The notes beneath the pieces were generated by a model. The model was not told the origin of the DNA. It saw only the letters and a program-made list of their open reading frames with translations, and searched no databases. Below, piece by piece: positions 2,120 through 57,473 of a stretch of DNA of 64,000 nucleotides. Source of the stretch: an uncultured Alphaproteobacteria bacterium (GTDB lineage: Bacteria; Pseudomonadota; Alphaproteobacteria; HIMB59); assembly GCA_902524245.1 (NCBI GenBank), contig CABZCN010000001.1, positions 372,001 through 436,000 on the forward strand, written 5' to 3'. The stretch's first letter is position 1. Every line of letters begins with the position of its first letter. The position numbers and the translations under genes were made by a program.

Positions 2120-2191
2120 TTAATAGCTTTTAGGAATTATTCACAGATTTTTTCTCACACTTACTGATTATTTCTACTTTGCTTTAAAAAT

Positions 2192-2209
2192 TTAACATAT
2201 TCTTAACAT
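2192..2209 (+). promoter_or_regulatory. Candidate PhoB box upstream of UgpB-like gene
   Basis: Two identical 7-mers, TTAACAT ATTC TTAACAT, with an 11-bp period, the geometry of PhoB half-sites. They lie 42 bp upstream of the start codon at 2252. Nearly the same arrangement (TTAACAT ATTT GTAACAT) sits upstream of pstS in this window. Binding by PhoB is inferred. Confidence 0.6.
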
Positions 2210-2251: not shown

Positions 2252-3487
2252 ATGAAAAAAGTAATCTTAGGATTTTTTGCATCAGTTTTCGCATACAACG
2301 CTAATGCGGTAGAAATTGAATTTGCATATCCTTATTCAGGTTTGTTCGATGTGACATACCAGGCAATTATGCCAGAGTTTGAAAAAGCTCATCCTGACAT
2401 TAAAGTTAAGTTCAGAGCAACTTATGAAAACTATGAAGATGCTACTGCTACTATACTAAGAGAGTCAACATCAGGAAACTTACCTGATATCACCATGCAA
2501 GGTCTTAATAGACAAGCACCTTTAGTAGACAAAGGTATCGCTTTATCTTTAGAGCCTTTCATTGCTAATGAGCCAGATTTTGCAAAAGACGGTTATCATG
2601 AAGCTATGTTGAGCTTATCTACCTTTGGAGGAGAGGTTTATGGCTTGCCATTTTCAGTATCAACTCCAGTTGGTTACTACAACATGGATCTTTTAGCAAG
2701 TGCTGGTGTTAGCAGCATTCCATCAAATTGGGATGAGGTCATTGACGCTTGTAATAAATTAGAAGCTGCAGGACACGGTACACTTTACTTTGGATGGAAT
2801 ATTACAGGTAACTGGTTCCATCAAGCTCTAATGCATAGCCAAAATGTTCCAATGGTTAAAGATGGAGCTGTTAATATGGGAGGAGATGCTGGTCTAAAAA
2901 CTTTAGAACAAATGAAAGATATCATGGGTGGCTGTAATATGCCTAACTATTCTATTGCTGACGGACAAGCTGCGTTTAATGCAGGTACTATTGGTATGAT
3001 GTTTTGGAGTACTAGTAGTTTAGGCTCTGTTGAAGCTGCAAAAGCTGACTTTGAACTAAAGACTGCGCCTTTCCCAGGAATACCTGGTGTTAATGGTGGA
3101 ACTCCAGCTAGACTACCTGCCGGTGGTAACGCAGCGATGTTAGTTACTACATCAGATGATCCTGAAAGAGTACAAGCGGCATGGACATTTTTAAAGTTTA
3201 TCACATCAGGTGTAGGAGCAGCTGCTGTTGCAGAAACAACAGGTTACGTTCCTCCTAACAAAGCTGCAAATGACCTGTTAGGTGATTTTTATGATGCAAA
3301 CCCCAACAAGTTAACTGCTGTTAATCAGCTGCCTTTGTTAGCTGATTGGTTCGCATATCCTGGAGAAAACGGTCTTGCTGTGACTCAGGTAATCTATGAC
3401 TATACTGAGACCATTGCTACAGGTGACGCCGACGACATGGCCGATCTTCAGGAAGAAATGATGGAGGAAATTGAAGACTTAATGTAG
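2252..3487 (+). CDS. ABC transporter solute-binding protein, family 1 (UgpB-like)
   Basis: Periplasmic substrate-binding protein of 411 aa. It has a signal peptide (MKKVILGFFASVFAYNANA, cleavage after about residue 19) and the two-lobed SBP family 1 pattern (MPEFEKAHPDIKV, NLPDITMQGLNR, LPFSVSTPVGYYNMDLL). The overall layout resembles UgpB, the glycerol-3-phosphate or glycerophosphodiester receptor, but the ligand cannot be read from sequence. A strong ribosome site, AGGAGGG, lies a few bases before ATG. A PhoB-type box upstream and phnA-phnY next door suggest a phosphorus-containing organic ligand, possibly a phosphonate. No permease or ATPase gene is adjacent. The gene ends at a strong terminator. 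Confidence 0.8.
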   Translation: MKKVILGFFASVFAYNANAVEIEFAYPYSGLFDVTYQAIMPEFEKAHPDIKVKFRATYENYEDATATILRESTSGNLPDITMQGLNRQAPLVDKGIALSLEPFIANEPDFAKDGYHEAMLSLSTFGGEVYGLPFSVSTPVGYYNMDLLASAGVSSIPSNWDEVIDACNKLEAAGHGTLYFGWNITGNWFHQALMHSQNVPMVKDGAVNMGGDAGLKTLEQMKDIMGGCNMPNYSIADGQAAFNAGTIGMMFWSTSSLGSVEAAKADFELKTAPFPGIPGVNGGTPARLPAGGNAAMLVTTSDDPERVQAAWTFLKFITSGVGAAAVAETTGYVPPNKAANDLLGDFYDANPNKLTAVNQLPLLADWFAYPGENGLAVTQVIYDYTETIATGDADDMADLQEEMMEEIEDLM

Positions 3488-46387: not shown

Positions 46388-46838
46388 ACAAAATTGCGTC
46401 TTGCGTATTTGGAGCGTTTATAGACTTACTCCGATAATAGTTTTTTCTTTCATTGTAGGCTTTATAGCCTAATTTTTCATAAAGTTTAATAGCAAATTTA
46501 TTAATAGCACTCGCTTCCAGAAAGATTTTAAATGATTTTCCAGTACTTTTGAGTTGTTTTTCAAGCTCTTCTAAAATCATTCTTCCCAACCCTTGGTTTC
46601 TAAATTCAGGCAAAACAGCAATATGTAAAATTTCAAATTCACTGACCTTTTGATCTTGATATAAAAAATGTCCTATCAAAGCACCTTTGACGTTAGTTTG
46701 ATCTAGAAGATAAATATTAAAACTTGTTTCTTTATTGAGGTGAAGCTCAATATCTTTTTCACTCCAATTAATCTCTAGTTGGTCTTTATGATTGATAATC
46801 CAATTTTTAGAATCAGATAGAGTATGTGTAAAGTTCAA
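46359..46838 (-). CDS. rimI: GNAT N-acetyltransferase, RimI-like
   Basis: 159 aa GNAT protein. The acetyl-CoA site is LPEFRNQGLGRMILEELE and the RimI-type C-terminal motif is FLEASAINKFAIKLYEKLGYKAYNERKNYY. Family members acetylate the N-terminus of ribosomal protein S18. tsaB, its usual upstream neighbour in alphaproteobacteria, is replaced here by the glycosyltransferase gene, which it overlaps by 4 nt. Confidence 0.82.
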   Translation of the reverse strand: MNFTHTLSDSKNWIINHKDQLEINWSEKDIELHLNKETSFNIYLLDQTNVKGALIGHFLYQDQKVSEFEILHIAVLPEFRNQGLGRMILEELEKQLKSTGKSFKIFLEASAINKFAIKLYEKLGYKAYNERKNYYRSKSINAPNTQDAILFAKSLNAIK

Positions 46839-47827
46839 GCCACAATATTATCATAAAAAACCTTGGAACACTCATACCAGTTAAATTTTTTTGTATATTC
46901 TTGACATTTTTTTCGATCGATAGTCAAACAATTCAAAACATTATCTTTTAAGTTATCACCAATAAAACCGTTGACCCCATTAACAATAATATCTTTAGGA
47001 CCTGTTACATCATAAGCAGCGACTGGTGTGCCGGTTGCATTTGCCTCAGTTACCACATTTCCAAAGGTATCAGTCTTGCTAGGGAAAACCATTACATCTG
47101 AACTAGCATAGTAATTCACTAAATTCTGGCCAAACTGGTAACCAACAAATTTTATATCTGTATATTTTTTTTTTAGTTTATTTAACTGTGGTCCATCGCC
47201 AACGACAACTTTAGTACCTTCTAAATCTAAATCTAAAAAAGCTTGAATATTTTTTTCAGTAGCCACTCGACCGATATAAGAAAATATTGGTCCCGGGCCT
47301 AAGTCTAATTTTTGATAGTTGCCAAATTTTTGATGATCGACACCTCTTGACCAAACAACGGTATTTTTAAAATTCATATTTATTAATTCGGCCTGCATGG
47401 ATGGGGTAGGAACAAGAACTTTTTTCGCTTTATTGTGAAAATGCTTTATGAAGAAGTAAAAGAAACTTGCAGGTATTTTTATACGTTGTTGAATATACTC
47501 AGGGAAACGAGTATGAAATGAAGTTGTAAAAATAATTTTTTCTGAAAGACATATTTTTCTGGCCAAAAAACCTAGGGGCCCCTCTGTAGCAATGTGAATA
47601 TGATCAGGATTGATCTGATCCATCATATTTTTCAATGTTTTTTTGCGAGTAATCACAACTTTAATCTCATTATACGAAGGAAGGCCAAAGCGAACTTTAA
47701 ATAACTCAGGGTGTATTACTTCTACCTGCATACCCATTTTTTCCAATTCCGGTATGGTATTCAGATAAGAACGGACGACGCCGTTTACCTGAGGTTTCCA
47801 TGCATCTGTTACTAATAATAATTTCAA
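46835..47827 (-). CDS. agt: Glycosyltransferase family 4, Agt-like (glycolipid synthesis)
   Basis: GT-B enzyme of 330 aa. N-terminal LLLVTDAWKPQVNGVVRSYLNTIPEL and HIATEGPLGFLARK; C-terminal donor-binding FSYIGRVATEKNIQAFL and PSKTDTFGNVVTEANATGTPVAAYDVTGP. It overlaps the PlcP-like phosphoesterase gene by 4 nt. In marine alphaproteobacteria such pairs (plcP-agt) convert phospholipids via diacylglycerol to glucosyl or glucuronosyl diacylglycerol under phosphate limitation. The sugar and acceptor are inferred from this pairing; a different mannosyl- or glucosyltransferase role is possible. Confidence 0.78.
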   Translation of the reverse strand: MKLLLVTDAWKPQVNGVVRSYLNTIPELEKMGMQVEVIHPELFKVRFGLPSYNEIKVVITRKKTLKNMMDQINPDHIHIATEGPLGFLARKICLSEKIIFTTSFHTRFPEYIQQRIKIPASFFYFFIKHFHNKAKKVLVPTPSMQAELINMNFKNTVVWSRGVDHQKFGNYQKLDLGPGPIFSYIGRVATEKNIQAFLDLDLEGTKVVVGDGPQLNKLKKKYTDIKFVGYQFGQNLVNYYASSDVMVFPSKTDTFGNVVTEANATGTPVAAYDVTGPKDIIVNGVNGFIGDNLKDNVLNCLTIDRKKCQEYTKKFNWYECSKVFYDNIVA

Positions 47828-48612
47828 GCTACAGATACCTTATTAAGAGTTTGTTTTTCTAAAGACTGGATTTTTTTTTCATTCCAAAAGACTAACTCCA
47901 AGTTGCCTTTAAAGTCCTCAACCATTGCACTACAGCTATCTACCCAATCTCCTAGATTATGATATGTCTTGTCACCAATTTTTTTTATTTGGGGATGGTG
48001 AATATGACCACAAACAATTCCATCACAATTATTTTTTTTTATTCTCTCAAGACATGCATTTTCAAAATTTTCAATATATCGTTGAGCATCTTTTACTCGT
48101 GTTTTTAAATATCCTGATAAAGACCAATACGAAAGACCAAGTTTTCTTCGACAGAAATTTAAAATATTATTAAACCAAACAGAGTAGTCATAAAGGACGG
48201 CACCTATCTTTGCTAACCATTTTGAATTTAGAACTATTCCATCAAATTCATGCCCATGCATTAAGAGAAGTCTTTTATTGTTCGCTGTTGTATGAATTCT
48301 ATTTTTTCGAACTTTAATGTTTGCAAATGAAAAACCACAATAATCTGAAAAAACTTCATCATGGTTTCCAGGTATATAATAGACTTTGGTACCTGAGCGT
48401 GCTTTTCGTAAAACTTTTTGTATGAAAGTATTAAAATCAGGATTCCAAAACCAATTTTTTTTTAGACGCCATCCGTCTATAATATCTCCAAGTAAATAAA
48501 GATGATCACAATCATTATATTTTAAAAAGTGTAAGAGCTCCTTTACTTTTGAAGCACGTATGCCAATATGAATGTCTGAAATAAATATAGATCGATGTTT
48601 TTTGATTTGCAT
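47824..48612 (-). CDS. plcP: PlcP-type phospholipase C metallophosphoesterase
   Basis: Calcineurin-fold phosphoesterase of 262 aa, often labelled UDP-2,3-diacylglucosamine diphosphatase-like. Metal ligands: FISDIHIG, LLGDIIDGW, PGNHDEV, MHGHEFD and CGHIHHPQ. The stretch RRKLGLSYWSLSGYLKTRVKDA and the NLGDWVDSCSAMVE ending closely resemble the PlcP group of Sinorhizobium and marine bacteria, which strips head groups from phospholipids during phosphate starvation, releasing diacylglycerol. The agt gene follows with a 4-nt overlap. Upstream lies a 17-nt sequence identical to one in front of pstS. Confidence 0.82.
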   Translation of the reverse strand: MQIKKHRSIFISDIHIGIRASKVKELLHFLKYNDCDHLYLLGDIIDGWRLKKNWFWNPDFNTFIQKVLRKARSGTKVYYIPGNHDEVFSDYCGFSFANIKVRKNRIHTTANNKRLLLMHGHEFDGIVLNSKWLAKIGAVLYDYSVWFNNILNFCRRKLGLSYWSLSGYLKTRVKDAQRYIENFENACLERIKKNNCDGIVCGHIHHPQIKKIGDKTYHNLGDWVDSCSAMVEDFKGNLELVFWNEKKIQSLEKQTLNKVSVA

Positions 48613-48656
48613 AGAATCTAAAAATAGATATATCTACGATTGATAGTATTGAGGAT

Positions 48657-48673
48657 TGTTAAAGTTTTATTAA
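48657..48673 (-). promoter_or_regulatory. Candidate PhoB half-sites upstream of plcP
   Basis: The plus-strand sequence TGTTAAAGTTTTATTAA is identical over 17 nt to 56195-56211 before pstS. Read toward plcP it gives TTAATAA AACT TTAACA, two units with an 11-bp period; the next unit (CAATACT) is degenerate. It abuts the ATG of the divergent SET gene. Confidence 0.5.
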
Positions 48674-49192
48674 ATGGACTCTTCACAAAAGCTTTATATT
48701 AGAAAAAATTCTAAAATTCATGCATCTGGTCTTTTTGCAAAAGCTGATATCAGTGCTGGCACTAGAATCATTGAATATCGCGGGTTAAAGATAACTAAAG
48801 CTCAATCCGACAAGATTGCTGATGTTCACATAGAGGCAAACAAAAGGGCTAAAACAGTCGGGTCTGTTTACATTTTTACACTGAATCAAAAATACGACAT
48901 CAATGGAAAAGTAACATGGAATTTAGCAAAATATATTAATCATTCCTGCGACCCTAATTGTGAAACTGATATCATCAAAGGAAAAATATGGATTAGCGCA
49001 ATTAAAGATATTAAGAAAGGCGAGGAACTGTCCTACGACTATGGATATGACATGTTTTGTTTCGAGGATCACCCGTGTCGATGTGGGTCTCAAAACTGTA
49101 TTGGATATATTGTTCGAAGCAATCTTAGATGGAGAGTTAAAAAAAGGTTAATTGAAAATAAAAAGTCAAGATTTAACAAAAACTTCACATAA
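48674..49192 (+). CDS. SET-domain protein lysine methyltransferase
   Basis: 172 aa with a complete SET domain. N-terminal SKIHASGLFAKADISAGTRIIEYRG; SAM/lysine-channel motif KYINHSCDPNCE; catalytic-Tyr motif KKGEELSYDYGYD; and a post-SET zinc motif HPCRCGSQNCIGYI. The fold transfers methyl groups to protein lysines, best known from histones; the bacterial target is unknown. It is divergent from plcP (61-bp gap) and 17 nt before dgkA, so it sits inside a lipid-turnover locus. A Lys-rich tail (VKKRLIENKKSRFNKNF) might bind nucleic acid. Confidence 0.88.
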   Translation: MDSSQKLYIRKNSKIHASGLFAKADISAGTRIIEYRGLKITKAQSDKIADVHIEANKRAKTVGSVYIFTLNQKYDINGKVTWNLAKYINHSCDPNCETDIIKGKIWISAIKDIKKGEELSYDYGYDMFCFEDHPCRCGSQNCIGYIVRSNLRWRVKKRLIENKKSRFNKNFT

Positions 49193-49209
49193 GTAGTTAA
49201 ACTTCAGAT

Positions 49210-49557
49210 ATGGATTTTAAAAATAAAAATATAGTAGATGCTTTTTGGTGTTCAATTGAAGGCCTAAAAATTCTCCTTCAAGAAAAAGCAGCAAGAAGAG
49301 AGCTATTATTGCTTCCCTTGTCTGCTCTATACATCGTAATTTTTCAACCGGCTCTTTTGTTCATACTTTGGCTGATAATTTTACCTTTGCTCATACTTAG
49401 TATTGAGGCTCTAAACACTGCAATAGAATATACCTGTGATAAAATTACTATGGATAAGTCAAACAAAATAAAGAAAGCTAAAGATTTGGGCTCTGCTGCA
49501 ATTTTTTTATCTCTAACAGCCTATGGAATAGTTTTATTCTTAGGTTTATTTAATTAA
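49210..49557 (+). CDS. dgkA: Diacylglycerol kinase, DgkA type
   Basis: Small trimeric membrane kinase of 115 aa with three membrane helices. Family motifs: AFWCSIEGLKILLQEKAARRELLLLP, SIEALNTAIEYTCDKI and KAKDLGSAAIFLSL. It phosphorylates diacylglycerol to phosphatidate. Near plcP-agt, which make and use diacylglycerol, it could return surplus diacylglycerol to phospholipid synthesis. It is probably co-transcribed with the SET gene. Confidence 0.92.
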   Translation: MDFKNKNIVDAFWCSIEGLKILLQEKAARRELLLLPLSALYIVIFQPALLFILWLIILPLLILSIEALNTAIEYTCDKITMDKSNKIKKAKDLGSAAIFLSLTAYGIVLFLGLFN

Positions 49558-49673: not shown

Positions 49674-50144
49674 TTAGATTAAATTTCCAATTTCTTTTAT
49701 TTGATCGATATTTAATAAGTTGTTTTGCTTATAATTTTGAACTAGTGCAAGACATCTTTTTTTAAGAACATTGAATACTTTTAAAAATTCTATCTCAACT
49801 TCCTCTTCAGTGCCTTTAAATTTTGCAGGATCAGCTACACCCCAATGTGCCTTTAATGTATTTTTGAGATACAGGGGGCAAGTTTCTCCAGCTGCATTAT
49901 CACACACAGTAATAACCAAATCAAAATTAATATCTGAAAAATCATTCCATGATTGACTTTTAAAATTGTCTAGGAAAATTTTATTTTTTTCTAATGTTTT
50001 GATACTTAATGGATGCACATATCCTGCAGGGTGGCTTCCTGCACTATAAGCATTAAAAAAGTCTTTACCATAATGGTTTAAAAGCCCCTCTGTTATAATT
50101 GATCGACAAGAGTTACCTGTACAAAGTACAAGAATTTTAATCAT
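49674..50144 (-). CDS. arsC: Arsenate reductase, low-molecular-weight phosphatase type
   Basis: 156 aa. The P-loop CTGNSCRS near the N-terminus is followed by VCDNAAGETCPLY with the redox cysteines and the AHWGVADPAKFKG motif with the catalytic Asp, as in thioredoxin-coupled ArsC. It reduces arsenate to arsenite. It begins 1 nt after phoB as the last gene of the Pho operon, which makes sense because Pst systems also import arsenate. No arsenite exporter gene is seen here. Confidence 0.88.
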   Translation of the reverse strand: MIKILVLCTGNSCRSIITEGLLNHYGKDFFNAYSAGSHPAGYVHPLSIKTLEKNKIFLDNFKSQSWNDFSDINFDLVITVCDNAAGETCPLYLKNTLKAHWGVADPAKFKGTEEEVEIEFLKVFNVLKKRCLALVQNYKQNNLLNIDQIKEIGNLI

Positions 50145-50145
50145 T

Positions 50146-50835
50146 TTAATTTTCTGAATCGATAGAGTAGCCAGCGGATCTAACTGTTCGAATGAAATCT
50201 TTTTCTCCTGGTAAATTCAGCTCTTTTCTGAGTCTTCTTATGTGAACATCAACTGTTCTAGGTTCAACGTAAGCGTCATTTAACCAAACATTATCCAATA
50301 GTTGCTGCCTAGAATAGACTCTACCTTTATTTTCAATAAAAAATTTTAAAAGATTAAATTCAGTCGGTCCTAAATTTAATTTTCTCTCACCCCTTGATAC
50401 CCTTCTGTTGGTAAGATTAATGTTAATATCATGAAACTTGAGTGAGTCGTTCTCTTCTCTTGCTTTTGTTCTTTTAAGTAATGATTTAATTCTAGCAAGG
50501 ATCTCACTTGGAAGAAAAGGTTTGGTTACATAATCCTCCACACCTAATTCAAAACCTCTAATTTTATCATCCTCTTGACCTTTAGCTGTTAACATTATAA
50601 TTGGAATTTTTTTTAGATTATCTTTTCTTTTAATTCTCTTTAAAACTTCAATGCCCGATATATTTGGTAGCATCCAATCTAATAAAATTAAATCAGGCAG
50701 CCAATGTTCGATCTCTTGGATTGCAGATTCTCCGTCGTATGAAAATTTTATTTGGTAGTTTTGTTGTTCTAAATGAAATCCAATTAATTCTGAGATTGGT
50801 TTTTCATCCTCTACAACTAAAATCTTGTCTGTCAT
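50146..50835 (-). CDS. phoB: Phosphate regulon response regulator PhoB
   Basis: OmpR-family regulator of 229 aa. Receiver: VVEDEKPI, phospho-Asp in LILLDWMLPNISG, Lys in DYVTKPFLPSE. The C-terminal winged helix has LGPTEFNLLKFFIENKGRVYSRQQLLDNVW and RTVDVHIRRLRKEL. Position and partner genes (phoR, pstSCAB, phoU) make it PhoB. Its ATG overlaps the phoU stop by 1 nt. Confidence 0.95.
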   Translation of the reverse strand: MTDKILVVEDEKPISELIGFHLEQQNYQIKFSYDGESAIQEIEHWLPDLILLDWMLPNISGIEVLKRIKRKDNLKKIPIIMLTAKGQEDDKIRGFELGVEDYVTKPFLPSEILARIKSLLKRTKAREENDSLKFHDININLTNRRVSRGERKLNLGPTEFNLLKFFIENKGRVYSRQQLLDNVWLNDAYVEPRTVDVHIRRLRKELNLPGEKDFIRTVRSAGYSIDSEN

Positions 50836-51524
50836 TAAAAATCAGATTTTTTTAAATCAATATAATGACCTGTAATGTTAAAAATGACCTCTTCAGCTAT
50901 GTTAGTAGCATGATCACCTATTCTTTCTAAGGACTTTGCAATTAAAATTGGCTTAGTGCCTTCATCAACAACACTTGTTTCTTTATTGTGCATTCTTTCT
51001 ATTAAATCAGATAATAAAGATTTGTACTGCCTGTCAATTTCTGCATCTTGATTCCATGAGATCCTTGCCTGTACCTCATCTTTTTTAAAAAAACTCTCAA
51101 GTGTTTGATTAACCATTTTTTGGACACCTTTACCTAAATTATGCATTTGGTCCGTTAAATCCTCGTCAAATGAAGAAGAAATTGAAATAGCTCTTTTTGC
51201 TAAATTTCTAGAGTGATCTCCCATTCTCTCAAGCTCTTTTGAAACTTTGAGGGCAGTGAAAACTAGTCTTAAATCACTGGCAACGGGTCTATGTAAAGTC
51301 ATAATTTCGAAACTTAAATCCCTAACATCTCTTTCCACTTCATCAACTTGTTCATCAAGATTCTGTGTTGTCTGTGCATCAGATGAGTCTTTAGATTTAA
51401 TAACATTTACTGCAATTTCAATTTGTTTCTCAACAATATTACTCATTTTAATTAAATTATCTGTAAGATGATTTAACTTTTGTTCAAAGTTTTTATCTGT
51501 GTGTGCTGTTTCCATTTTAACCAA
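50835..51524 (-). CDS. phoU: Phosphate signalling protein PhoU
   Basis: 229 aa, two PhoU helical repeats. Motifs: metal-binding [26 protein letters not shown] with [18 protein letters not shown] in repeat 1, and [22 protein letters not shown] in repeat 2. It links the Pst transporter state to PhoR, keeping the regulon off when phosphate is ample. It overlaps pstB by 8 nt and phoB by 1 nt. Confidence 0.95.
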
Positions 51525-52293
51525 ACCTTCCAGTTATGTAGTCATTTGTTTGTTCTTTATCAGGTTTTGTAAATATCTTACCAGTTTCTCCATATTCGAC
51601 AAGGTTACCTAAATGAAAAAACGCAGTTTTAGATGATACTCGTGATGCTTGAGACATAGAATGAGTTACTATAATAATTGTGTAATTTTCTTTCAATTCG
51701 TTAATTAAATCTTCTATTTTTGCGGTTGCTATTGGATCTAATGCAGAACAAGGTTCGTCCATCAAAATGATTTCCGGTCTTATAGCAATCGCTCTTGCAA
51801 TGCACAATCTTTGCTGTTGTCCTCCTGATAAACCGGTAGCAATATCATCCATTCTATCTTTTACCTCTTCATAAAGACCCGCTCTGTGAAGTGAGTCTTT
51901 TACTATTTCATCTAATTCATTTTGAGAAGAAGCAATACCATGAATTTTTGGTCCGTAGGCAACATTTTCATAAATAGTTTTTGGAAAAGGATTGGGTTTT
52001 TGAAAAACCATTCCAACTTTTTCGCGAAGAGTTTCTACCTGTATATCAGGGCTATATATATCAACATTGCCATTCAACAAAAACTTACCTTTAACATTAC
52101 AAATATCTATTACATCATTCATACGGTTTAAACATCGCAAAAATGTCGACTTACCACAACCTGAGGGTCCTATAAGAGAAGTTACTTCATTTTTTGGAAA
52201 ATTAAGAGCAACGTTATTGATTGCCATTTTTTTTCCATAGTGGACATATACCTCACTTGTTTGCAAAGCATAATTGCTGTTTTGATCTACCAT
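51517..52293 (-). CDS. pstB: Phosphate ABC transporter ATP-binding protein
   Basis: 258 aa ATPase. Walker [26 protein letters not shown] signature [19 protein letters not shown], Walker [22 protein letters not shown], and switch His in IIIVTHSM. The ATG overlaps the pstA end by 7 nt. Very well conserved. Confidence 0.97.
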
Positions 52294-53537
52294 TTCACCT
52301 CCAATTTTCTTCTTACCAACACTGCCACAGTATTCATTATAATCAAAAAAGATAAAAGTAGCATTATTCCTGCAGATGTTTTTTCGAGGAAACCTCTTTC
52401 AGCGCTCTCAGACCATAGATATATTTGTGAAGGAAGACCAGTGGCAGGGTCGAATGCCCCTCCCGGTATTTCCATCACAAAAGCAACCATACCTACCAAT
52501 AATAAAGGGGCTGTCTCACCCAAAGCTTGTGCCATTCCAATAATTGTTCCAGTAAGAGTACCTGGCAAAGATAAAGGGATTACATGATGAAATACAGTTT
52601 GCATTTTAGTAGCCCCCACAGCAAGTGCTCCCTCTCTAATTGAAGGGGGGACGCCTCTGAGCGATGCCCTAGATGCTATAATAATTGTTGGTAAAGTCAT
52701 AAAACCTAAAACTAATCCTCCAACTAAAGGGACTTGATATGGCATCCCAAAAACTCCAATTAGCATACCTAAGCCTAAAAGTCCGTAAACAATAGAGGGA
52801 ACCGCCGCAAGGTTATTTATATTTACTTCAATAATGTCAGTTATTTTTCCTGGTTTAACAAATTCCTCTAAGTACACAGAAGCCAAAAGTCCGATTGGAA
52901 AAGCAAAACTAAAACAGATCAATAAAGCATAAAAAGACCCCATAAGTGCTCCAAGTATTCCGGCTGTTTCTGGATCTCTTGAGTCTCCATTTGTGAAAAA
53001 CCAAAAATTGAATGTCTTAGACATTTTACCTTTGGAGTCTAAAGAGTCTAAGATAGAAAGTTGATAATCATTTATTTTTCGTTGTGCTTCGGGAACATTT
53101 CTTGGATAGTTTCCTTTGACAATTTGGTCAAGATCTGATGAGGCAGATATATCTAAATTGACAGTTTTTCCAATTACATTTGGATTGTTTGCAATATAAT
53201 CTCTCAGCTGATAATCAAATTTTCTTGTGTACATTTCTCTGACTTTAATAAAATTTTCTTCATCTAATCCAGGATGGTTTTGGTTAATCACTTGATCAGC
53301 AAGATCAACATAAGATGCTTTCATTATTTCTTTTTTGGAGGAGTTACTAGAAACCTCTATAAAATTTGGGTCAAAATAAACATCAGCATTAATAGTTGTT
53401 CTAACAAAAGCACCACTGCCGGTAGAAAAAATTTTATACATTAAAATAAGCACGAAGAACAAAGAGAGAGTCATCGCAAACATTCCATAAAATTTGAAAC
53501 GTTTCTCTGCTGCAAGTCTCTTTTCTAAACTACTCAT
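52287..53537 (-). CDS. pstA: Phosphate ABC transporter permease PstA
   Basis: 416 aa, longer than the roughly 300-aa E. coli PstA: one N-terminal helix followed by an extra periplasmic segment of about 150 aa ([13 protein letters not shown] to [21 protein letters not shown]) before the permease core. The core has [25 protein letters not shown] and the EAA loop [26 protein letters not shown]. Long PstA proteins with this layout are found in other alphaproteobacteria. It overlaps pstC by 8 nt. Confidence 0.93.
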
Positions 53538-54966
53538 ATTTTTCTCTGTACTTTTTTACTATTGTTATAGCAGCAATATTAAGAATTAATGTCATTACAA
53601 ATAAAGTTAGGCCTAAAGCAAAAGCAACTAAGGTTTTTGGATTATCAAACTCGACATCTCCTATCAAACTTGTAACAATCTGTGTTGTTATTGTAGTCGC
53701 TGGCTCCAAGGGATTAAAAGTAAGATTTGCTCTTAGGCTGGCGGCCATAACGACAATCATTGTCTCACCTATTGCCCTAGATATAGCTAATAAAAATGAG
53801 CCCATTATTCCAGCTAGAGCTGCTGGTAAAATTACTTTTTTAATAGTTTCTGATTTAGTTGCTCCAATTGCATAAGAACCCTCTCTTAAAGATTGAGGAA
53901 CTGCTTTTATGACATCGTCACTAAGAGAGGAAACAAAAGGTATGATCATAACACCCATCGCTAAACCTGCAGCTAGAGCACTTTCAGCGGACACCGGTAA
54001 TCCAACGCCTTCACCGACATCTTTTATGAAAGGTGCCAGTGATAAAGCAGCAAAAAATCCATAAACAACTGTGGGTATGCCAGCAAGAATTTCAATTATT
54101 GGTTTAGCTATATCTCTTACTTTTGATGACGCATACTCTGCTAAATAAATTGCTGTTAGCAGTCCTAAAGGAACAGCGACTAACATGGCAACAGATGCAA
54201 TTAAAAGCGTTCCGGTAAGCAAAGGTACAAAACCAAAAGCCTCTTTTAAAGCCTCTTGATCGAAGCCTTCTGATGCATTGATAACAAAAGCTCTATTGGG
54301 ATTCCATGCCGTATTAAAGAAAAAGTCCATAAAATTTACGTACCGAAAAAAATTAATGGCCTCGAAAACAAGAGAAAAGAAGATTCCAAAAGTAATGAAT
54401 ATTGCAATATAAGAACTGCCCTTGATAACATATGAAATTATTTTCTCAACAATTGGCTGTGCATTTAGTTTTCCTGATATTGATTTCGTAGCCATAAATC
54501 CTAAAAGCACAGGTAGAATAATAAATAGAGTTAAATTCGACCATCCGTAGATCTTGTCAAAATTTGCTAAATTTTTTGCTGCAATTATCTCACTCTCACT
54601 GGCCATTTTTAAAATTGATTTATCGCCTACGGTCAAATCAATTTCTGATAAATTAACAATTATAGATAGGTTGCTAATCTTATTCATAATTAAACCGAAT
54701 TTTCCAGAGCTCCATGTAGCGACATCTGGAAATAACACAGGGGACATTACAAACATCTCTTGAAAGTTTGATTTAAAAATAAGTAAAAAGAACCAAATAA
54801 TTATTGCTGGAAAAAAAACTAAAAGGACAACGTAATATCCATAATAATCTGGAAGAGAGGAAAGATTTTCATTTTTTTTAAATTTTAGGCTTAATGCTCT
54901 TTTTTTACCATAGAAGTAAAAAGAGTAAGAAAGTATAAAAACAAAAACAAGTGATAAATAAAGCAT
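53530..54966 (-). CDS. pstC: Phosphate ABC transporter permease PstC
   Basis: 478 aa with an extended N-terminal part (two helices flanking a periplasmic segment) before the core. The permease domain has PLLTGTLLIASVAMLVAVPLGLLTAIYLAEYAS and the EAA loop REGSYAIGATKSETIKKVILPAALAGI. It is separated from pstS by 80 bp with a strong hairpin. Partner of PstA in the membrane channel. Confidence 0.94.
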   Translation of the reverse strand: MLYLSLVFVFILSYSFYFYGKKRALSLKFKKNENLSSLPDYYGYYVVLLVFFPAIIIWFFLLIFKSNFQEMFVMSPVLFPDVATWSSGKFGLIMNKISNLSIIVNLSEIDLTVGDKSILKMASESEIIAAKNLANFDKIYGWSNLTLFIILPVLLGFMATKSISGKLNAQPIVEKIISYVIKGSSYIAIFITFGIFFSLVFEAINFFRYVNFMDFFFNTAWNPNRAFVINASEGFDQEALKEAFGFVPLLTGTLLIASVAMLVAVPLGLLTAIYLAEYASSKVRDIAKPIIEILAGIPTVVYGFFAALSLAPFIKDVGEGVGLPVSAESALAAGLAMGVMIIPFVSSLSDDVIKAVPQSLREGSYAIGATKSETIKKVILPAALAGIMGSFLLAISRAIGETMIVVMAASLRANLTFNPLEPATTITTQIVTSLIGDVEFDNPKTLVAFALGLTLFVMTLILNIAAITIVKKYREKYE

Positions 54967-54998
54967 ACTGTCCTATTCCTCTATAAACTGATTTTGTC

Positions 54999-55024
54999 TT
55001 AGGGGCAAGAAATCTTGCCCCTAA
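54999..55024 (-). other. Strong hairpin between pstS and pstC
   Basis: Perfect 11-bp stem TTAGGGGCAAG / CTTGCCCCTAA with a 4-nt loop. In the direction of transcription no T-run follows, so it looks like an mRNA-stabilising or processing hairpin that would keep pstS mRNA above pstCAB, not a full terminator. Confidence 0.75.
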
Positions 55025-55046
55025 AAATAAGATAATTAATTAATGC

Positions 55047-56123
55047 TTACTTACAAAGTCCGCTTGAAAAAGCGTAACCAGCATCTTTTAATGGATGTTT
55101 TTTTTCAGCACATGCTGCAATATCAAATCCCATTGCATCTAAGCTGTCAGTAACGTTTCTTACTCTATTGATAAGGTCTGGTACCATAGGTGCAGCACCA
55201 ATTTTTGTTAGGTAACCGTTATCACCAATTGCTTCATCACTTACCATCATTTGTGCAAACTCCTGAATGCCAGGTACAACCCCGATGTGATCTGCTTTTA
55301 AGTATATGAAAAGAGGTCTTGCCATTGGATACTCATAAGTTGCAATGGATTCAGCAGATGGTACTACTCCCTCAACAGTAGATGGTTGTAATTTATCTCC
55401 GTTGTCTTTTAGATAAGAATAACCAAAGTAACCAAAACGTTCTGGATCCTCAACTAGTTTTTGAACAATAAGAGTGTCATTCTCACCCATCTCGATGATT
55501 TTTCCATCTTCTCTGTAATCAGTACATCCATCGTCACTGCCAGTTACTGCTTCTAATGTACATCCAGCTTCCATTACTTTACCATCAAATGCATCTCTTG
55601 TTCCTGAGGTTGGAGGAGCTACTAATACTTCAATTTTATATGCAGGAAGGCTTGGGTTAATTTCGTTCCAAGTTTGATATGGATTTTCGACCACTTCACC
55701 ATCAACAACAACTTTTGCAGCCATAGCTGTAAAGATTTCTTCTCTTGTTAGAGAAAAAGGTTCTGCTTCGTTGGAGTGAGAAAAAGTAATACCGTCATTA
55801 GCCCACATCACTTCAATTACGTTTGTTACACCGGCTTCAAGACATAATTTAGCTTCTTTAGCTTTCATTGGTCGTGACGCTCCAGTAATATCTGGAAATT
55901 CAACTCCCACACCAGCACAAAATGCTTTCATTCCACCACCAGTTCCAATTGGATTGTAAGTGGGGGTTTTAAAACCTGACTCGCCGAGTCTTTGTGCGTT
56001 TACTGTTCCATATGGGTATACTGTTGATGAGCCAACAATATTAATTTGATCTCTTGCAAAAGTTTCAGCAGAGAAAAGTACGCTTACTGCTAGAGCAAGA
56101 AAAGTTAACATAGATTTTTTCAT
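55047..56123 (-). CDS. pstS: Phosphate-binding periplasmic protein PstS
   Basis: 358 aa. Signal peptide MKKSMLTFLALAVSVLFSAETFA; phosphate-binding loops in INIVGSSTVYPYG and PPTSGTRDAF, with DITGASRPMKAKE between. This is the long PstS type common in marine alphaproteobacteria. An AAGGAAC ribosome site precedes the ATG. It has its own PhoB-type box in the 84-bp gap after phoR, and the hairpin behind it would allow higher expression than the permeases. Confidence 0.95.
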   Translation of the reverse strand: MKKSMLTFLALAVSVLFSAETFARDQINIVGSSTVYPYGTVNAQRLGESGFKTPTYNPIGTGGGMKAFCAGVGVEFPDITGASRPMKAKEAKLCLEAGVTNVIEVMWANDGITFSHSNEAEPFSLTREEIFTAMAAKVVVDGEVVENPYQTWNEINPSLPAYKIEVLVAPPTSGTRDAFDGKVMEAGCTLEAVTGSDDGCTDYREDGKIIEMGENDTLIVQKLVEDPERFGYFGYSYLKDNGDKLQPSTVEGVVPSAESIATYEYPMARPLFIYLKADHIGVVPGIQEFAQMMVSDEAIGDNGYLTKIGAAPMVPDLINRVRNVTDSLDAMGFDIAACAEKKHPLKDAGYAFSSGLCK

Positions 56124-56182
56124 AGTTAAGTTCCTTTATGTTGTTTAAATTGAGCTAAAAATATCCATTAGAAGTAAATCTT

Positions 56183-56211
56183 ATGTTACAAATATGTTAA
56201 AGTTTTATTAA
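56183..56211 (-). promoter_or_regulatory. Candidate PhoB box upstream of pstS
   Basis: Read toward pstS: TTAATAA AACT TTAACAT ATTT GTAACAT, three 7-mers with an 11-bp period, ending 59 bp before the ATG. Its upstream part overlaps the phoR stop codon (56208-56210). The last two units match the box at 2192, and the first two match the sequence before plcP. Confidence 0.7.
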
Positions 56212-57473
56212 GCATGCTTTGGAATTGTGATTAAAAACTCTGAGCCTTTTCCAACTTCACTTTTTATGTCAATAAAACCCATGTTTTTATTCAAAATATG
56301 TTTCACAATTGAAAGGCCTAATCCAGTACCACCAACCTCTTTGGATCGAGCACTGTCCACTCTGTAAAATCTCTCGGTAAGCCTTGAGATGTGCTCTTCT
56401 GCAATGCCTATGCCATTATCCTTGAAGGAAATTTCGACATATTCAGTCATATTGCTAGTATTCATTTTTTCACGAGCTTTAATTAAAATTTTAGCACCAT
56501 CTTTTGAATATTTAACAGCGTTGTTAACGATATTGACAACCACTTGAATAAATTCTTCATGAGGACATCCAACTAAAAGAGATTGGTCTAAATTAATATC
56601 AACATTTATTTTTTTCTTTAAAATTTTTGACTCCAATGAGTTTATTCCAATTTTAACGGTATTTAATAAATTACAAAATTGGTCATTCTCATTAGTTTTT
56701 TTATTCTCGATGGAACTTAAACTTAATAGATCATCAATCAAAGAGTTCATTCGATTTGACTGATCTTGAATAATTGAAATAAATTTTTTTTTATTTTTTT
56801 CATCGTCAACAGTTAAAAGTGTTTCTAAATATCCTATTATTGAAGAGAGTGGAGTTTTTAATTCGTGACTTACATTAGCTACGAAGTCAGTTCTTACCAT
56901 CTCAAGATTTTTAATTGCAGTAATGTCTTTAAAAGCAACGCAAAAAAAATCGTTAATTGGAAATCCTGTAACGTCGTAATATCGGTCATTTGGTATTAAT
57001 CTGTTCCACTCAAAATTTTTTTTTGATTTAGTTTTAAGTGCGTTACTTAGATTTTCAGACAAAGATAAGTCTCTTAAACCTATTTTAAGGTTATCTGCAT
57101 TTTCTAAATTAAATGTCTCTTTGAAAATATTATTAACGAATATGATATTATAATCGTAATCTATAATAACTATTGAGAGGTCTAAGGAGTTAAGAATGTC
57201 TTGATACTCCAAACTTTGTTTGTCACCAACTTCGATGCGTCTTTCTTTGTCTAAAAGAGTCTCTTCTAAAATATTTCGGACTTTTGTAAATAACATATTG
57301 TCAGATTTTCTTAGGTCAAAAGTTTTTTTTTCAAGATAGCTCTCAAAGAAATAATAAGAAATGAAATAAACTAAACTCTGAGAAATAATTGATATTAAAA
57401 AAATATTAATTGAAGTACTAAAAAACAAAAATAAGTTTAATGAGAGAACAGCAATAGAAAATACAAATAACAT
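56208..57473 (-). CDS. phoR: Phosphate regulon sensor kinase PhoR
   Basis: 421 aa histidine kinase. Two N-terminal membrane helices, a PAS domain (YQDILNSLDLSIVIIDYDYNIIFVN), phospho-His in VANVSHELKTPLSSIIGYLETLL, N box VVNIVNNAVKYS, and G boxes FKDNGIGI and GGTGLGLSIVKHIL. It lies 1 nt after ppk and upstream of pstS, with which it shares the Pho block. Partner of PhoB. Confidence 0.93.
   Translation of the reverse strand: MLFVFSIAVLSLNLFLFFSTSINIFLISIISQSLVYFISYYFFESYLEKKTFDLRKSDNMLFTKVRNILEETLLDKERRIEVGDKQSLEYQDILNSLDLSIVIIDYDYNIIFVNNIFKETFNLENADNLKIGLRDLSLSENLSNALKTKSKKNFEWNRLIPNDRYYDVTGFPINDFFCVAFKDITAIKNLEMVRTDFVANVSHELKTPLSSIIGYLETLLTVDDEKNKKKFISIIQDQSNRMNSLIDDLLSLSSIENKKTNENDQFCNLLNTVKIGINSLESKILKKKINVDINLDQSLLVGCPHEEFIQVVVNIVNNAVKYSKDGAKILIKAREKMNTSNMTEYVEISFKDNGIGIAEEHISRLTERFYRVDSARSKEVGGTGLGLSIVKHILNKNMGFIDIKSEVGKGSEFLITIPKHA

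Follow-up and report, generated by a model that had tools for sequence, protein, structure and literature searches.

The locus described here raises the question of whether a SET-domain methyltransferase gene takes part in a bacterial lipid-remodelling pathway or only stands beside it. It lies in a 64,000-nucleotide stretch (hereafter, the window) of contig CABZCN010000001.1 from an uncultured alphaproteobacterium of the order HIMB59 (AEGEAN-169), whose genome is 1.37 Mb in size. An initial annotation had described plcP and agt as divergent from SET and dgkA, and all four genes were recovered in that arrangement: agt overlaps plcP by 4 bases, 61 bp separate plcP from SET, and the gap between SET and dgkA is 17 bp (Table 1). 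The whole region is already in print as the "flexible phosphate-related genomic island" (fGIp) of HIMB59 (Molina-Pardines et al. 2023, PMC10734472). The gene content of the window matches the list in section 7 of that report, a pst operon island at a conserved place; the match was made by gene content, and the island border was not redrawn. Our analysis indicates that the locus is probably the lipid-remodelling part of this phosphate island, with SET as a separate gene.

The assignment of plcP was addressed with a tree of PlcP and LpxH proteins (74 rows). The window protein fell inside a PlcP clade of 45 rows, apart from an LpxH clade of 29 rows that includes E. coli LpxH. The split had an SH-aLRT value of 100 on both sides, and the 18 PlcP rows of the HIMB59 order formed one clade (97); the tree was built by a quick method, and long branches were flagged on its LpxH side. 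Furthermore, the NCBIfam LpxH models stayed under their cut-offs for the plcP product (53.7 of 134 and 43.5 of 190.35 bits); this product has GNHD at the position of GNRD in E. coli LpxH. Of 60 relatives, LpxI was detected in 44, and the source genome is among these. Since LpxI is present elsewhere in the genome, a dedicated enzyme already serves the LpxH step in this cell. As a PlcP-type enzyme, the window protein would be a manganese-dependent phospholipase C acting on phosphatidylglycerol and phosphatidylethanolamine.

Regulatory sites point the same way. The Pho-box model (18 bp) was derived from 26 distinct sites upstream of pstS and the DUF47-pit operon only, without plcP or SET, and both strands of the window, about 128,000 positions, were scanned with it at a 99.99% level of 9.2 bits. 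The best site in the window reads toward plcP, and a lower-ranking one lies upstream of dgkA. Among the mapped loci of the order, 22 of 42 plcP upstreams and 11 of 19 dgkA upstreams passed 9.2 bits, and none passed upstream of agt (0/41), phoU (0/41), or rimI (0/34). The same model placed 7 of 11 SAR11 loci above the 99.99% background in the direction of plcP. Thus, the tree, the LpxI found elsewhere, and the Pho boxes all uphold the initial view of plcP-agt as a lipid-remodelling pair, and the plcP homologue does not group with LpxH-like enzymes. As a side observation, the fourth-ranking site of the scan (window 2191-2208, + strand, 13.2 bits) lies 43 bp before an open reading frame (2252-3487) apparently encoding a sugar-binding transport protein.

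We surveyed 120 genomes of the order. Absences are soft because many of these are partial single-cell genomes. SET was found in 102, plcP in 79, and dgkA in 32. In all 78 genomes with both genes, plcP and SET were adjacent and divergent (37 mapped, 41 by match coordinates), and the sole plcP genome without SET was G096; this order is not chance. In one genome (G083, locus L082), the only SET match was an open frame of 99 aa, which may be decayed or truncated. What flanks the pair differs between genomes: one side carries rimI, aqp, or pitA-DUF47-c20, and the other dgkA, arsC-phoB-phoU-pst, phoR-pst, or a permease with weak likeness to PHO4. Within the genus, dgkA was present in all 30 plcP-bearing genomes, and the genus shares the four-gene order, which is not a peculiarity of this genome. 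The gene dgkA was also present in G019, which lacks plcP but carries a plcP remnant, and in G030, where it adjoins GDPD- and Sulfatase-domain genes instead, which may be another source of diacylglycerol. Because of these two genomes, dgkA is not strictly tied to plcP.

The window DgkA shares 29 of 90 identities with E. coli DgkA, exceeds the PF01219 cut-off, and conserves the E..LN.AIE / KD.GSAA core, whose residues we take to be catalytic. Its putative substrate is diacylglycerol rather than undecaprenol. In SAR11, we mapped 12 plcP loci (L300, L302, and L330-L339, hand-picked across genera), and in 10 of them plcP-agt diverges from a gene of another family, DAGK_cat; the two exceptions have arsC at that place (L330) or a contig edge (L302). 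The L300 kinase scored 105.5 bits with DAGK_cat and passed the TIGR00147 cut-off, and the other SAR11 kinases were named by similarity to it. The same arrangement was seen in one of two other alphaproteobacteria (L341, not L340). An olsB-like gene and an OlsF/GlsA-like acyltransferase gene adjoin plcP-agt in several of the SAR11 and other loci of this survey. Thus, a diacylglycerol kinase recurs beside plcP-agt with two unrelated families, and these placements argue for a functional link. The proposed role of dgkA as a counter-acting kinase gains from this second, unrelated enzyme, and a kinase of either family beside plcP-agt points to diacylglycerol recycling within remodelling.

From the protein families, the gene order and its conservation, and the box sequences observed here, we infer enzyme activities, PhoB binding, and the direction of flux as follows. 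At low phosphate, PhoB would bind the box before plcP and turn on plcP-agt. PlcP would strip the phosphate head group off phospholipids to give diacylglycerol, to which Agt would add a sugar, yielding a phosphate-free glycolipid. DgkA, perhaps also under PhoB control, could re-phosphorylate surplus diacylglycerol to phosphatidate, by which phospholipids would be rebuilt and a build-up of diacylglycerol avoided. SET would be a separate and more widely kept gene that shares the intergenic region with plcP.

Several observations weigh against this model. Of the 68 genomes in the second family of the order (f2), 49 have plcP and none has dgkA, DAGK_cat not having been searched for there; since this family has plcP without dgkA, DgkA is not required. 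Most plcP copies beside SET in this family also come without a clear Pho box. Only 20 bp separate the dgkA box from the start codon, and this box has a lower score than those of plcP and pstS. The trees hold no biochemically tested PlcP or Agt sequences. Finally, among NCBIfam models the agt product matches lipid glycosyltransferases best, but at 58.4 of 480 and 48.2 of 400 bits it does not reach their cut-offs, and the 25 best matches listed include no curated model of Agt itself; the product is classed as likely Agt-like by its position and its GT4 fold. In five loci of the second family (L100-L103 and L119), an extra plcP-agt pair was seen about 7 kb from the SET-linked pair. The OlsF/GlsA-like acyltransferase gene (c43) adjoins this extra pair in L100, L101, and L119, and all six c43 upstreams have Pho-like boxes.

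The protein encoded by SET is probably a working lysine methyltransferase. Among the matches listed, the best solved relatives of its profile were MLL1-4 and SET1 (E 3e-28). A structure predicted from 56 sequences (pLDDT 88.4; a first model from 12 sequences reached pLDDT 44 and was unused) superposed on MLL3 with Z 17.6 and an rmsd of 2.1 over 139 residues, again among the matches listed. N89, H90, C92, Y123, C135, C137, and C142 are invariant in the 56 homologues, rows L159 and L162 having been left out of the alignment as misaligned; we take these residues to be the NHSC motif, the catalytic tyrosine, and the post-SET cysteines. It is a putative, apparently intact enzyme of the MLL/SET1 type and is probably cytosolic.

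How far, then, does SET follow plcP? In SAR11 (197 genomes), SET was found in 113, plcP in 85, and both in 52, and the two occur independently (counts 52/61/33/51, Fisher p = 0.38). In genomes with both, the genes were mostly on separate contigs or distant. For SAR11 SET, the neighbours are dapE/truA in the g183 genomes and two of the three g342 genomes mapped; in g341 and g344 it lies elsewhere, and in some cases it adjoins sugar genes. Six SAR11 loci (L227, L228, L212, L309, L316, and L319) have a histone-deacetylase-family gene between dapE and SET (PF00850, 267 bits in L227), so that a lysine deacetylase-like gene adjoins SET; such genes occur in 52 of 60 genomes of the HIMB59 order, and in the source genome on other contigs. 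Relatives of SET at 42-57% identity were found in Verrucomicrobiota, Omnitrophota, and Woesearchaeota. In the SET tree, the window-family proteins stood nearer one SAR11 type and the second-family proteins nearer another; we looked into this grouping once the tree had shown it, the second tree was built after removing seven long or distant rows, and an AU test did not reject a single clade at 0.05 (p = 0.0537). The family has probably spread widely and horizontally. A role as a eukaryote-directed effector was set aside, as the gene is present in most relatives (102/120); we know of no host for these free-living cells.

Within the order, the history of the locus could be read from a string on the SET strand inside plcP, which recurs directly before SET in relatives without plcP. 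In four such loci (L068, L073, L076, and L078), the 5′ end of plcP can be aligned to a stretch of about 50 bp preceding SET, with scores of 21-29 vs shuffle maxima of 16-22, and the reading frame of L068, L073, and L078 retains H[LI]GI..LKVKNV vs HIGIRASKVKEL. The match was weaker in L067, L070, and L075 and was not significant in L069 or L072; the search pattern was written after seeing the sequences searched. The string is best read as a putative plcP leftover after loss of plcP-agt, perhaps kept since it holds the SET promoter.

A general role of SET in phosphate control, in which it modifies, e.g., a Pho, PiT/Pst, or nucleoid protein by phosphate status, is conceivable, though we consider it rather unlikely. 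A Pst, Pit, or Pho gene lies within three genes of SET in all 23 mapped plcP-less loci and in 56 of 60 overall, SET edges a pst or pit block in the seven viewed genomes of SAR11 g104, and a Pho-like box (15.8 bits) points toward SET in G062 and G100. However, the SET loci of the order descend from one ancestral place and are therefore not independent, no nameable phosphate neighbours of SET were seen in the other mapped SAR11 genera or in the Verrucomicrobia, Omnitrophota, and archaeal relatives, and a gene may sit at the border of a variable island without being functionally linked to it. An association with two-component genes in Omnitrophota was dropped as phosphate evidence because the proteins behind the "phoR/phoB" labels are 23-37% identical to generic kinases and regulators.

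The outer base of the plcP Pho box is the A of the SET start codon, and bound PhoB is therefore predicted to cover the SET start. As the overlap suggests, PhoB could switch plcP on while blocking SET. A bolder and unlikely extension is that SET is wired to phosphate status opposite to lipid remodelling: SET transcription would run through the plcP box, so that PhoB acting on plcP-agt would shut SET, which would methylate its target (a nucleoid, ribosomal, or Pho protein) only when the cell is phosphate-replete. If true, this would be a bacterial lysine-methylation mark that signals nutrient status in cells among the most abundant in the ocean.

The SET fold alone is no proof of protein lysine methylation, because BurB, a proven bacterial SET enzyme, methylates free methionine to S-methylmethionine (PMC12542666). 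That the window protein is likewise a small-molecule methyltransferase seems improbable to us. Its best sequence and fold matches listed are the MLL/SET1 histone methyltransferases (about 135-140 residues, Z 17), and its post-SET cysteines are invariant across the homologues. BurB was not among the best 60 or 50 matches listed and was not compared directly.

The initial annotation had further suggested that SET might modify a protein of the remodelling pathway or a nucleoid protein. If it acts in the pathway, SET could methylate, e.g., PlcP, Agt, or DgkA, and the divergent pair would persist as both products are required at once. The unbroken adjacency of plcP and SET in two families with differing outer neighbours speaks for such a role. 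In contrast, SET is kept without plcP in 24 of the 102 SET genomes of the order, its presence in SAR11 is independent of plcP, with the genes mostly far apart, and it also occurs in unrelated contexts (dapE/truA or sugar genes). A pathway role for SET is thus not supported, and we regard it as very doubtful; SET is a conserved neighbour rather than a shown pathway member. Finally, it is scarcely credible that the "plcP" gene is instead the lipid A enzyme LpxH, as it is labelled in the island list of PMC10734472, even though LpxH is the closest family of solved structure (E about 1e-5), since the plcP product stands outside the LpxH clade and below the LpxH models, LpxI is common and in L324 sits in a lpxA-lpxI-lpxB row (named by reading), and plcP was not found in 41 of 120 genomes.

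Beyond the reading of the locus as a lipid-remodelling part with SET as a separate gene, its surroundings fit the island. The left flank beyond agt holds a rimI-like acetyltransferase gene and then miaB, and the right flank runs from an arsC-like gene through phoB, phoU, the pst genes, pstS, and phoR to ppk, His_Phos_1 (SixA-like), and ppx. The SET gene at this locus is the only one found in the source genome. The arsC-like product, published as "WzB", scores as a low-molecular-weight phosphatase/ArsC-like protein, and an aquaporin gene adjoins it in relatives. Pairs of arsC-like and aquaporin genes serve arsenate detoxification; because of this likeness, an arsenate role tied to phosphate uptake is possible.

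Table 1. Features of the locus and its right flank (positions in the window)
Feature	Position	Strand	Remarks
agt-like GT4 glycosyltransferase gene	46835..47827	-	TTG start; likely diacylglycerol glycosyltransferase; GT4 domains, Pfam 70.9-71.7 bits
plcP, calcineurin-like metallophosphoesterase gene	47824..48612	-	Pfam Metallophos 54.2 bits (cut-off 21.5)
String within plcP, recurring directly before SET in plcP-less relatives	48541..48569	+	possible SET promoter and/or, in those relatives, plcP remnant
Pho-box-like repeat TTTAATAAAACTTTAACA toward plcP	48657..48674	-	19.5 bits, best in window
SET-domain protein with post-SET cysteines, 172 aa	48674..49192	+	Pfam SET 85.3 bits (cut-off 22.4)
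Pho-box-like repeat upstream of dgkA, within SET 3′ end	49172..49189	+	12.7 bits, rank 5 in window
dgkA, prokaryotic membrane diacylglycerol kinase gene	49210..49557	+	Pfam DAGK_prokar 71.3 bits (cut-off 22.3)
arsC / low-molecular-weight phosphatase-like protein	49674..50144	-	Pfam 65.2 bits; arsC model 83.4 of 174.3, under cut-off
phoB, phoU, pstB, pstA, pstC, pstS, phoR	50146..57473	-	phoB, phoU, pstB, pstA, pstC named by reading sequence and position
Two overlapping Pho-box-like repeats upstream of pstS	56184..56212	-	15.7 and 17.2 bits; pstS upstreams in training set

Previously, the HIMB59 fGIp versions C-E have been described with the same island content, including a SET-domain protein, a diacylglycerol kinase (DGK), "LpxH", "RfaG", "WzB", ppk, ppx, pst, and PhoBR; in its section on the island, that report assigns LpxH to the synthesis of lipid A and counts the glycosyltransferase and DGK among genes having no direct phosphate function (PMC10734472). 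PlcP and an Agt-like enzyme are the better names for the published LpxH and RfaG, a re-reading that would give the HIMB59/AEGEAN-169 order the SAR11-type lipid swap. The same text states that island version B has lost the methyltransferase. Unlike that version, the arsC-phoB-phoU-pst-type islands of L073 and L077 (G024 and G045) keep SET at their edge; the island border may have been drawn differently. Our search, which lacked most subscription papers, found no literature joining HIMB59 with plcP.

The lipid-remodelling part of the initial annotation is most likely right, and it describes a known kind of system within a published island. The marine plcP-agt locus likewise has plcP followed by agt and a Pho box (Sebastian et al. 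2016, PMC4796936), and the Agt of SAR11 strain HTCC7211 makes the glycolipids MGDG and GADG (PMC4796936). The divergent partner here is SET and then dgkA; the words "kinase" and "methyltransferase" were not found in the main text of that report. For HTCC7211, a diacylglycerol kinase catalytic-domain protein, a metallophosphoesterase, and a group 1 glycosyltransferase appear together in one list of over-represented clusters (PMC3686209). In Pseudomonas putida BIRD-1, PlcP, DagK, and OlsAB are lipid-remodelling proteins enriched at phosphate depletion (PMC5082522). Our locus shares PlcP and a diacylglycerol kinase with this set, which the portion of that report consulted does not show as one locus and for which it does not state the kinase family. 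The SET domains of MLL/SET1 (COMPASS) have in common with ours the fold, the NHSC motif, the tyrosines, and the post-SET cysteines; unlike them, the window SET is a stand-alone bacterial protein. A conserved, apparently intact SET methyltransferase is marked in two orders of streamlined marine bacteria.

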